Virus record (IMG/VR): IMGVR_UViG_3300027996_000120
Span: 1 to 30,009 of that record
Length of the DNA: 30,009 bases
Source of the DNA: a virus
Direction: 5' to 3' (one strand)
The notes under the pieces are model-generated. The model was not told the origin of the DNA and did not search any database. It was given only the letters and a program-made list of their open reading frames with translations. Within the stretch, counting starts at the first letter, position 1, and each line of letters starts with the position of its first letter. Shown here piece by piece: positions 8,142 through 30,009 of the stretch. The translations under genes were made by a program, and so were the position numbers.

Positions 8142-8276
8142 ATGAAAAAAACAAGTATAAATAAAAAGAAAGATAAGATGTTGAGATTTACTCTTCCCGA
8201 GTATTGATTCACTATTGAAGCTAAAAACACAAGAGAAGCCGTTGAAAAAGCGGAAAAAATACTTTCTAAAAAATAA
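8142..8276 (+). CDS. Small basic protein between tail terminator and portal
   Basis: The 44-residue product starts with Lys-rich MKKTSINKKKDKM and then forms one strand plus a helix (FTLPEYGFTIEAKNTREAVE). This resembles the short domains in which a strand precedes a helix with an EAxxxAE pattern. I do not recognise a family. It is closely packed between neighbours on the same strand, so it is likely translated. Confidence 0.6.
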
Positions 8277-15163: not shown

Positions 15164-16813
15164 ATGACTTTGATTAATTATAAAACTACTAATAATGCTG
15201 AAACAACTTTGTTTGCTACAATTTCAGCAAGTGCAACTTCATTGATTTCAAATACAGATGAATGAGATTTGTTCCCGATTGAATTCCCTTTTCTTTGTAC
15301 TCTTGAGAAATTTTCTTGAGAAAATATAATTAAAAGAGAAATTATAAAAGTTACAAATAGATCTTGAGACGCATTCACAATTGAAAGATGAATTGAAGAA
15401 TGTGTTCAAGATGAAACAGCAAGTCCAAAAATTCTTTCAAGCAATGGTTTGGAATTTACTGCATGATCAAAACTTTCTCTTTATAATACTGCTTGAAATG
15501 AGCAAGATATGAAAGCAGAACTTGTGAGACTTGAATCTGAAAAAGTTAATCAATCCGAGTATGATTTGGAAAAAAATGTTTTTTGAGCTTCAAGTGAATG
15601 AGATGATGACTATGTGATCACGGACGCAAGTTTGATTTCATATAATGATTGACAGCCGATCAGATTCAGAGTAGATGTTGCAAATACTTGAGCTGCAACT
15701 TTACAAATAAACGCTTTATGATCAAAATCATTAAAAAAACAACAATGAACAGAAGATTTAATCACTTGAGATATTCTTGCAAATTGAATTGTAACTGCTG
15801 TTTATAATTCAACATTAGATGTATTTCAATTTGTTTGACAACTTGCAACTGTTGTTTCTTGAGAAAATCCTATATTTTGAAATTGAAGTGATTGAGTTTT
15901 GAATATAACAAGTTGAACAACTTATTTGAACTTGAATCAAGAATATAATTTTTCATCAATAAATATTTCAGCTTGAGCAATTTTATCAACAAATGATACT
16001 GAATGAGTAATGATTTTAAAATGTAATTGAACAACAACAATTGATTGAACTATTGAATTAACTTGAAAACAATGTTTTATTTGAAGAGAAATTTTTGTTG
16101 TATGAATTGGATTATTAGAAATTTGAGAATGATGAGATTGATGAAATTGATGAATGTGAAGCACAACAAATGCTTGATGACTTTTATGAGCTTCTGAATT
16201 CTATTGATTTGGAGGTGGTTGATGATGATGAAGTGCTGTTGCTGTTGATTGATGAAATTGATGATCCGCTTCTTATATTTGATGAGTTTGATGAGAATGA
16301 AGCGTTGTTATTGGTAGTGTGACTTGAAAAGATTGATGAAATTCTGCTTGATGAAGTTGATGAAACTATTTTTGAAATTCGTGAGCTTGATGAGATTCTT
16401 TTTCAAATGATTGAATTGATTGAACTACTGTTTGAAGTTGATGATGAGGTGGTGGTTGATGAGCTTGATGAATCAAATGATGATGAATTATAATTTTTAC
16501 AATAAGTTTGATTTGAGCTTGATTGATAAATTGTATTTGAGATATTTGATGAGATTGATGAGCTTCGGCAGATAATGCAAATTTAGGGGCTTGAGATTAT
16601 ATGTGATGAGGTGGTTGATGATGATGAGGTGGTGGTTGAATTATATGAATTTGAACTAATTCTGATAGTTCTTCAATTACATTAGATGTAAGTTGATGAT
16701 TATGATGAACTTGATGAGTAGGTAAACAAGATAATTGAGTGAATCAAGCTCTTGCATTTTGAGATGATTGAATTGATTGAGCTATTTGAACTTGAATAAT
16801 TACTATTATATAA
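15164..16813 (+). CDS. Tail fibre/adhesin with UGA-encoded polyglycine tip
   Basis: The 549-residue protein begins with a beta-rich attachment part (FPIEFPFLCTLEKF, NIIKREIIKVTNRSGDAFTI) followed by a helix (NEQDMKAELVRLESEKVNQ). Residues of about 145-310 carry fibre-type repeats such as GAATLQINALG and TTTIDGTIELTGK. From about residue 315 to the end the sequence is Gly-rich with Asn, Ser, Ala and Asp, including runs of up to ten glycines, interrupted by hydrophobic strands (GIIIFTISLIGAG). Most of these glycines are UGA, often four in a row (16220-16231), mixed with GGT. The layout recalls glycine-rich phage adhesins such as T4-type gp38, whose polyglycine-II helices present variable loops to the receptor. 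Receptor binding is inferred. Confidence 0.8.
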
Positions 16814-23490: not shown

Positions 23491-23958
23491 ATGGAAACTT
23501 TAATGAATTATTGAATCATTGCTTTGAACTTTATTGATCAAAATTTTACTTTTATATTTGCAATAATATATTGATTATTGATGATATATTTTCAATATAA
23601 ATATTACAAAGAAAAAAAGAAAAATATTGTTTTAAAATGAAACATTAATACTTATAAAACGCTTTCTTTATCTTTAACAAGTCTTTTAATAAAATTTAAT
23701 AAACAAAATAATAAATTAATTAAAACATTAAAAGAAGTAAGAAAAAACAGAGATAAAGTATATAAAAAACATCATACTCAAATTGCATATTATAAAAAAA
23801 GATATTTTGCTCTTGATCTTGTGATTCAAGATACATTCAGAGACAATCCGCCGTTTATAATTCTTATAAAAAATGATTTCTATGATCTACAAAAGAAAAC
23901 TTTTAAAGAGTTGAGAAAAATGAAAAAAAATTTGCAAAAAAGAAATAATAATATATAG
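23491..23958 (+). CDS. Membrane-anchored basic coiled-coil protein
   Basis: The 155-residue product has one membrane segment near residues 20-36 (FTFIFAIIYGLLMIYF), then a long basic helical region with about one Lys in four residues. A short hydrophobic stretch (PPFIILIKNDFYDL) lies near residue 128. No family recognised. A membrane anchor for replication or an exclusion function is conceivable. It ends in TAG, directly before a structured RNA. Confidence 0.65.
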
Positions 23959-23978
23959 TTAATTACATACATAAAAAC

Positions 23979-24105
23979 CGCGAAAAAAAATACATGCTTT
24001 GAGTTTGAAAATATAGTTTCACGACTAAATGAAAGCTGTTCTTTAAAGAAATAAGAACAGACAAAGCATATAAAAGAGATAGTTTTTCGCGATTCTATCT
24101 CTTTT
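23979..24105 (+). ncRNA. Structured leader RNA with three-way junction and terminator switch
   Basis: Four perfect helices can be read. P1: CGCGAAAAA (23979-23987) with TTTTTCGCG (24083-24091). P2: ATGCTTTG (23994-24001) with CAAAGCAT (24062-24069). P3: TTTCA (24017-24021) with TGAAA (24030-24034). P4: CTGTTCTT (24036-24043) with AAGAACAG (24053-24060). P2 encloses P3 and P4. The 3' strand of P1 forms the loop of the terminator hairpin that follows, so P1 and the terminator should compete. This is the design of a riboswitch or attenuator. The next gene starts 20 bases later. I do not recognise a known class. Confidence 0.65.
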
Positions 24106-24110
24106 ATTTT
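24072..24110 (+). terminator. Terminator hairpin of the leader RNA
   Basis: Eleven-base-pair stem AAAAGAGATAG (24072-24082) with CTATCTCTTTT (24095-24105), a 12-base loop containing TTTTTCGCG, and a following T-rich tract. It sits directly upstream of the replication gene, so it probably controls read-through. Confidence 0.7.
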
Positions 24111-24124
24111 GTAAAAAATTTAAT

Positions 24125-24931
24125 ATGAAAGAAACATTTTACTTCTCGCATGATTATAATGCTCGTGATGATGAAAAAATACTTCACATGGTTTCAGAAA
24201 TGTGAATGGAATGATATTGACTTTATTGGTGAATTGTTGAAATATTAGCAATAAATGAATGAAAATTTAATTTAAACACTCAATGAATTGCTTATAAATT
24301 TAGAATAGATAACAAACTTATAACACAACTATTACACAATTATAATTTATTTATAATAGACGAAGAAGAATGAATATTTTATAATGCAAGATTATTGGAG
24401 CATTTTGAAAAAAGAAGTAAACAAAAAGAAAGAAAATCAGCAGCATGAAAAAAATGAATGGCTAAAAGGTGGGGAAATAATAACACAGTTATAACAGAAA
24501 ATAACACAACTATAACAAACGATAACAAAGTAAAGGAAAGTAAAGTAAAGGAAAGTAAAGTAAATAATATTATATCTAAAGATATAACAACAGAAGTTGA
24601 AGTGTTTTGAAATGAAAATATAAATAAAATGCAAGAACATATAAAAAAAACAATAGAAGATACATGAAGAATTTATAAAGCATGAAAATATGAAAGAATG
24701 AGAATTAAAAATATTCTGACTTGAAAAGAGTTTTGAGAAGTTTGTGAAAAAGCAAAAATGAGCAGAAAAGATTTTGTTTTTAATATTATAAACTTAGCTT
24801 GAAAATTAAAATATTCAAAATCAATAAATAATTGAGCAGATTTATATTCAAATTATGCAGCCGTTTATAATAAATGACTTGAAGCAAAGCATGAACTTTT
24901 AGAAACTAAAATATTAAGAGAAATATGATAA
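24125..24931 (+). CDS. Replication initiation protein (DUF4373/Lin1244-type N-terminus)
   Basis: The 268-residue protein begins YFSHDYNARDDEKILHMVSE followed by GYGLYWGIVEILA, YKFRIDNKLITQLLHNYNLF and RSKQKERKSAAGKKG, the clear outline of DUF4373 winged-helix proteins found at the N-terminus of phage replisome organisers. A low-complexity Asn/Thr/Lys linker (about residues 120-150) is encoded by tandem repeats that may be the origin. The C-terminal domain (GRIYKAGKYERMRIKNILTG) could recruit helicase. No helicase or polymerase gene was seen, so host replication proteins are probably loaded. Confidence 0.82.
24480..24565. repeat. Iterons inside the replication gene (candidate origin)
   Basis: ATAACACAGTTATAACA (24480) and ATAACACAACTATAACA (24501) are followed by ATAACA at 24522, a strict 21-base period, two helical turns. 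Then AAAGTAAAGGAAAGT occurs twice in tandem (24527-24541, 24542-24556), followed by a half copy. Repeats inside the initiator gene recall the lambda O origin. They encode only a low-complexity linker, so protein constraint does not explain them well. Confidence 0.6.
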
Positions 24932-29486: not shown

Positions 29487-29951
29487 ATGGAATATAAATT
29501 TTGAACATGAAGACCTCCAAAGTTTGAAAAGGCAGAAGATATGCAAAAACAGATTCAAGAATATTTGAGCAGCAATATTGATAAAATGAATATTAAAACA
29601 TATTATGATGTCAAAGAAGTTCCCGTTTTAACGATTACATGACTTGTTCTTTATTTGGGTTTTGCAGATAGAAGTTCATTCTATAAGTACGAGAAAAAAG
29701 AAGAGTTTAGGCACACAGTAAGAAGAGCAAGAACTTTTATTGAGAATACTTATGAAAAGCAGCTTCAATCTTGAAACGCTACATGAGCGATTTTTGCATT
29801 GAAAAATTTCTGATGGAAAGACATTCAAACTCTTGAATGAGAAGTAAATGACAATTGAGAAAGAAAGTTTGTGATCGAACATAAAAAAAGTAAATATGAA
29901 AATCTTGATAAAGATTGAAACGAACAGAAAGATGAAAATGATGTTGTATAA
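29487..29951 (+). CDS. terS: Terminase small subunit
   Basis: The 154-residue protein recognises the phage packaging site and hands DNA to the large subunit. It opens GTGRPPKFEKAEDMQKQIQE and contains TITGLVLYLGFADRSSFYKY, a helix-turn-helix, then a helix with FRHTVRRARTFIENTYEKQL and GAIFALKNFGWKD. These are the landmarks of the gp3-like small terminase family. The C-terminus is charged. The ATG is fused to a terminator T run. On the circle it precedes the large subunit by about 70 bases. Confidence 0.9.
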
Positions 29952-30009
29952 TATATATAAATGATAGAAAATTCACGGGGTTTTGAAAAATACAATTGCT
30001 TTAAATAGA
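29871..30009. repeat. Right copy of terminal direct repeat (circular overlap)
   Basis: Matches 1-138 with one additional A in the run beginning at 29883. This version keeps the terminase small subunit frame intact through its TAA. The overlap indicates a circular assembly, or less likely a true terminal redundancy. Confidence 0.9.

Follow-up and report, generated by a model that had tools for sequence, protein, structure and literature searches.

The window, the whole 30,009-base stretch of DNA analysed here, is a virus record whose two ends, 1-138 and 29871-30009, overlap by 138 bases that are identical bar one A (an A6/A7 run). Because of this overlap the phage genome is probably complete despite the linear classification of the record, and the one-A difference is probably an assembly or population indel. 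The only code in which the window reads is code 25, where TGA specifies glycine, and which is used by Absconditabacteria and Gracilibacteria (PMC10746230). An extreme use of the reassigned codon is seen in a glycine-rich tail-region protein of 549 aa (15164-16813), which has 105 in-frame TGA codons. Every gene of the window is on the + strand, in the order terminase, head and tail, lysis, a Sak4-like AAA protein, Gam, NinB, an HTH protein and a small membrane-type protein. A gap of 166 nt separates the last of these from a replication initiator gene (24125-24931, + strand, code 25) of Lin1244_N/phrog_2562 type, matching PF14297 (E=5.3e-9, with the domain starting at residue 6) and the phrog_2562 replication initiation protein (E=2e-16). 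The leader element described below lies inside that gap and the initiator gene is its presumed target, and so the position that the original prediction gave it, before a replication initiator, is borne out.

The leader RNA and its competing folds

Two short segments on the + strand are central. Segment A, CGCGAAAAA (23979-23987), is the perfect complement of segment A', TTTTTCGCG (24083-24091), each has a single occurrence in the 30 kb, and their pairing gives a helix, P1, of 9 bp. Between them is a domain (23994-24069, + strand) that is within the minimum-energy fold of both of the states to be considered and folds at -20.1 kcal/mol alone. It comprises P2 (23994-24001 with 24062-24069, 8 bp), P3 (24002-24010 with 24017-24026, 5 + 4 bp flanking a bulge) and P4 (24036-24043 with 24053-24060, 8 bp). 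There follows an intrinsic terminator, with its 5' arm at 24070-24082 and its 3' arm and T-rich tail at 24095-24110 (both + strand), the stem being of 13 bp with 24095-24107, counting outer A-U pairs, and TTTG coming after it. The 12-nt terminator loop, TTTTTCGCGATT (24083-24094), contains A'. Four helices and a competing terminator had been predicted here, and all are present in the predicted folds, which are better than those of 200/200 shuffles. The sizes given for P1, P2 and P4 were right, as was the use by P1 of 24083-24091 of the loop, a perfect complement over 9 bp; P3, put at 5 bp, gains a further 4 bp, and two outer pairs lengthen the terminator stem from 11 bp to 13.

The initiator ATG, at 24125, is 17 nt past the end of the terminator stem, and as this leaves no room for a promoter between them, transcripts of the gene must cross the terminator. 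A consensus scan yielded a tentative leader promoter, TTTGCA-17-TATAGT (23931-23959, + strand), in a leader region where the promoter-like sites it counts, 31 against 27.4 expected, are not above chance. Also overlapping the element is a code-25 frame of 84 codons (23994-24248) that opens with an ATG within P2, continues across the whole leader and the terminator and extends into the initiator gene, which is read in a different frame; a ribosome translating it would melt the leader structure, and the frame itself is possibly there by chance.

How unusual is the fold? For the 171-nt region the folding energy is -35 kcal/mol, compared with -20.3 +/- 3.6 in shuffled counterparts (z -4.15; 0/200 as good). 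Among 20,000 shuffled upstream sequences, 93 had a stretch of 9 nt or more complementary to the terminator loop, a p of about 0.005, and the energy of the A/A' loop/upstream duplex, -11.9 kcal/mol, was matched by one shuffle in 100. The state with P1 has a predicted energy of -28.7 kcal/mol, that with the terminator -33.6 and the minimum-energy fold -34.5, and at equilibrium the terminator is ahead by 5-6 kcal/mol. As the transcript lengthens, the lowest-energy fold is P1 while the 3' end lies between about 24090 and 24099, and it is the terminator once about 24102 has been reached. P1 pairs with the terminator loop and no stem strand is common to it and the terminator. The original prediction had the two states excluding each other, and the competition for the loop stands; strict exclusion and an on/off design are less secure, the former being what we infer from geometry, since with P1 frayed by two A-U pairs a 7-bp pseudoknot with the loop, its linkers measuring 2 and 3 nt, might form alongside the terminator.

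Recurrence and covariation before initiator genes

When 4227 Rfam families were scanned at gathering threshold and then at relaxed E, the window had no match at the former and chance-level matches only at the latter, and none was found in the leaders of relatives, in accord with the earlier claim that no known riboswitch class is matched. The window element has one close homologue, which is identical and hence without covariation; a covariance model of the element (R1), run over 353 related genomes and 330 kb of viral loci, picked up nothing but that copy, and no divergent homologue of the window's own element was found by sequence. The phages reached through terminase, portal and Sak4 searches either lacked this leader or were on contigs that stop short of it. 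The Sak4-retrieved code-25 prophages are without the element, as are the close code-25 relatives L332 and L051-L053 and, among other Lin1244 phages, EF62phi, Porphyromonas phage005, JNU_P2, LBR48 and Vibrio 1.236.O. In Porphyromonas phage005b (L128, 1440-1500) there is a strong GC-rich hairpin directly before the initiator, which has neither T-tract nor upstream partner.

The arrangement itself is real and broader than the window alone. Its defining features are an intrinsic terminator that heads a replication operon, 6-35 nt ahead of the start codon, and, no more than about 150 nt upstream, a segment of unique sequence to which the terminator loop is perfectly complementary; the window has a stem end 17 nt before the ATG and a 9-nt complement unique in 30 kb. 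In G055, of the Absconditabacterales class and using code 25, a distant initiator, 28% identical to that of the window in global alignment, is preceded by a leader of unrelated sequence and the same plan: the terminator is 17 nt before the start codon, its loop has GTCGCC and the upstream segment GGCGAC. Both Lin1244-type initiator loci of G055 carry the element, in the second one small ORF earlier; the complement at L132 (15222-15262) is 6 nt exact, or 9 bp once adjoining A-U and G-U pairs are counted, and that at L133 (minus strand, near 8239) is 8 nt plus more. When about 57 kb of G055 and the window were scanned with shuffles as control, exactly three terminators stood out, each of them at one of these replication-gene heads. 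As to background, in 527 kb of G055 four of 137 long-loop terminators qualify, one being the replication-gene site, while in 524 kb of phage loci 39 of 174 do, nearly all heading the replication operon.

A profile built from three initiators led to 80 viral loci, and 81 leaders were examined, with four hairpins defined by hand. In just over half (42), a terminator stands 6-33 nt ahead of the gene and its loop can pair with a segment further upstream; these make up 27 distinct pairs, and about half of the leaders are without the element. Later searches included, the number of distinct loop/partner pairs is by our own tally about 38, at least 37 of them lying outside the window, before replication genes of unrelated phages. 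The carriers are code-25 phages and prophages, metagenomic phages and three cultured Flavobacterium phages, morran9-1, tooticki6-1 and elemoA, among whose partner segments, GTGAGAAG, GTGAGACG and GTGAGATG, one compensated position differs. In the MKETFYF subfamily, to which the window's initiator belongs, the complement extends over 13 nt in L324, over 10 nt in L372 and to a 24-bp helix in the code-25 L256; the leaders of this subfamily have no sequence similarity to one another, and their pairs differ in sequence, yet are complementary. The T-tract is weak in L324 and L372. A further stretch of the window leader, CACGACTAAATG (24020-24031), is over its 12 nt a perfect complement of the loop in the terminator of L372, an unrelated phage, perhaps by chance.

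Two subtypes can be distinguished. In most Flavobacterium-type leaders the partner is itself the loop of a first hairpin, so that the loops can kiss; in many relatives both A and A' join the 3' arm directly, with 0 linker, and the 5' side through a short linker. The stems of both hairpins are there conserved together with the loops, and the terminators have strong T8 tracts. A TAnnTTTG (Bacteroidetes-type) promoter is just upstream of A in most phage leaders, and the terminator therefore stands between promoter and gene. The window is not of the kissing subtype, for its A is unstructured and closes a junction; A is also unstructured in L132, and is outside a stable hairpin loop in L183, L207, L324 and L372. 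Between the subtypes there is no detectable leader sequence similarity, while the place before the same gene family is the same. In L183 the partner segment occurs a third time, as CAACACGCA, directly before the initiator start codon (near 2300-2320).

Does selection maintain the pairing? A leader's own two segments are complementary over 7.9 nt on average, and exchanging partners between leaders lowers this to 5.3. Among 11 distinct leaders of one cluster, 100% of cells of the loop-loop helix are paired and 4 of its 8 pairs have changed on both sides; the covariation score of the whole structure was reached by 0/500 shuffles, and sliding that structure by 1-3 columns lowers its paired cells to 34-46%. 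This is strong comparative evidence that the pairing is under selection in the kissing subtype, and it comes from a cluster of relatives rather than from the window's own sequence. The covariation that the original prediction proposed to look for in homologous loci was supplied by sequence-divergent relatives; the one close homologue gave none, and no known family was matched. Leader and initiator gene recombine independently: L272 and L274 have proteins 97% identical and leaders 78% identical, with 2 of 8 loop bases changed, and L227 and L197 have proteins 62% identical and leaders 85% identical.

What the pairing may do

The location, the complementarity and the covariation are shown, over about 38 sequence variants before the same type of gene. 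From them, and from the energetics, our preferred reading, with a probability of roughly 0.55, is that the window leader is a co-transcriptional attenuator of the initiator gene, with read-through favoured by A capturing A' and with self-RNA as the likeliest masking agent. Polymerase would first make A, next the P2-P4 domain and lastly A', which lies in the terminator hairpin's loop. Capture of A' by A, forming P1 before the terminator 3' arm exists, would delay or weaken the terminator and let transcription enter the gene; were A masked, the terminator would form and the initiator would not be made. That gene expression depends on read-through follows from the terminator lying between promoter and gene in the Flavobacterium type, or, in the window, leaving no promoter room; that pairing favours read-through, and that the RNA acts in trans, is what we infer. 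Masking would perhaps be by the leader's own RNA in trans, by analogy with P4 and pT181, the likeliest agent being another copy of the same leader RNA, building up as phage copies or a resident prophage rise. Initiator expression would then be fed back on copy number, or be blocked in an immune cell. A point against antitermination is the equilibrium preference of the window for the terminator noted above, and a closed terminator hairpin can tolerate the kissing geometry, so that pairing might aid termination instead. Also weighing against it are the lack of the element in about half of the leaders and in several close code-25 relatives, the want of a divergent homologue of the window's element by sequence, and the weak T-tracts of L324 and L372.

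A real possibility, if short of even chances, is that the terminated leader is itself the product, a trans-acting immunity or copy-number RNA of the kind exemplified by P4 CI or c4, with the variable loops as specificity tags; its loops would act on the leaders of sister phages or of incoming ones. P4 offers a precedent, in that an RNA derived from its leader represses the replication genes by terminating their transcription early (PMC4825925), and the diversity of the loop pairs, with about 38 variants, and the independent recombination of leader and initiator seen with L272/L274 fit it. However, the loops change no faster than the leader around them (mismatch 0.138 in loops and 0.130 in the rest of the leader in the best cluster), because of which diversifying selection is not shown, and A and A' within one molecule would tend to pair together. 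This reading can be combined with either cis mechanism. Beside it may be set the observation that L255 and L261 have CTCACTAC upstream and GTAGTGAG in the terminator loop, with the roles swapped in L232, L235 and L236; phages with such a swapped pair could interact in trans.

Might the upstream segment strengthen or speed the terminator, with pairing as the OFF state and relief by a competitor RNA or protein? The Flavobacterium-type loop-loop geometry, with its short 5' linker and 0 on the 3' side, suits a closed hairpin, and the strong T8 tracts and the joint conservation of both stems with the loops are as such a stabilised terminator would have them. Yet by rough estimate the spacer looks too short in many leaders for both stems and the kiss in cis, the spacers of L190 and L194 being 7 nt for a rod of 36-37 bp, which favours competition between stems and kiss. 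In the window the partner is outside any hairpin, and most of the 12-nt loop is taken up by the 9 bp. Stabilisation of the terminator by the kiss is a serious rival, if clearly less likely than antitermination.

Two further readings are improbable, and about equally so. An enclosing P1, a junction domain and a following terminator are what a ligand riboswitch with P2-P4 as its aptamer would present, and the original prediction had allowed for metabolite sensing. The aptamer is the most conserved part of riboswitches, whereas the enclosed P2-P4 domain varies in sequence and shape among relatives, even among those that retain the pairing of the terminator loop; L132 has only about 3 nt between A and terminator, and no Rfam class matches. 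Metabolite sensing is therefore unlikely. The other reading is that the element acts as DNA, either as a hairpin at the origin or as inverted repeats that bind a protein. Origins usually contain inverted repeats, the element adjoins an initiator gene and the minus strand folds too, but the T-tract past the hairpin in gene direction and the same-strand upstream promoter in relatives argue for RNA, and a cruciform needs no loop-loop complementarity. Least credible of all is an ordinary terminator of the upstream gene with a chance complement, for though such complements are common in an AT-rich region and the window alone gives a p of only about 0.005, about 38 variants at the same place, compensatory changes and the swapped-pair controls speak against it.

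Kinship with known attenuators and significance

The gene controlled in pT181 is rep, encoding the replication initiator. In the attenuator of pT181 type a 5'-leader terminator is set among mutually dependent folds and kissing hairpins initiate the interaction (PMC4878617). Common to it and to the present leaders are a terminator in the 5' leader of an initiator gene and interdependent folds; there, the anti-terminator pairs with the terminator 5' arm and an antisense RNA is involved, whereas here a sense-strand segment pairs with the loop, at 24083-24091 in the window, and the 5' arm is not what it pairs with. In the immunity of satellite phage P4 the replication genes are repressed by premature termination, and an RNA derived from the leader pairs with sites in that same leader (PMC4825925). 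CI RNA with seqA and seqC resembles the present case in being from a phage leader before replication genes, in having mutually complementary segments and in having termination as the control step (PMC4825925). The difference is that in the present leaders the loop of an intrinsic terminator, directly before the initiator, supplies the complementary segment, and any processing or trans action is putative. With c4 RNA of phages P1 and P7, where complementary sequences are probably in loops and are linked to immunity specificity (PMC12197685), the likeness is that of a phage regulatory RNA with loop-placed complements, but its target is ant mRNA, and here both loops are in one leader around a terminator before the initiator. 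Riboswitches with a terminator platform share the helix-closed junction that competes with a terminator; here there is no aptamer conservation and no class match. The window leader is best read as an RNA attenuator of a replication gene that is unlike those described in pairing its terminator loop with a sense-strand segment, an arrangement not found described in the open-access literature.

Could these leaders form one functional class? Tentatively, and rather less likely than not, each may carry two matching loops, one of them that of the terminator, and give a terminated RNA that serves in cis and trans as a sequence-specific RNA for copy number and superinfection immunity, with interchangeable specificities, in a widespread class of Bacteroidota phages and of code-25 (Absconditabacteria/Gracilibacteria) phages.

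RNA control of the start of replication is classical for plasmids and for satellite phage P4, though, to our knowledge, its examples have come one at a time. Dozens of covarying specificities before one initiator family, in cultured Flavobacterium phages as well as in phages of uncultured code-25 bacteria, make a general mechanism testable. The loop-paired terminator architecture provides a rule for finding such leaders in raw sequence, and the loop pairs may serve as orthogonal parts for RNA circuits. For the phages themselves, the recurrence points to a widespread and hitherto undescribed RNA switch for starting DNA replication.
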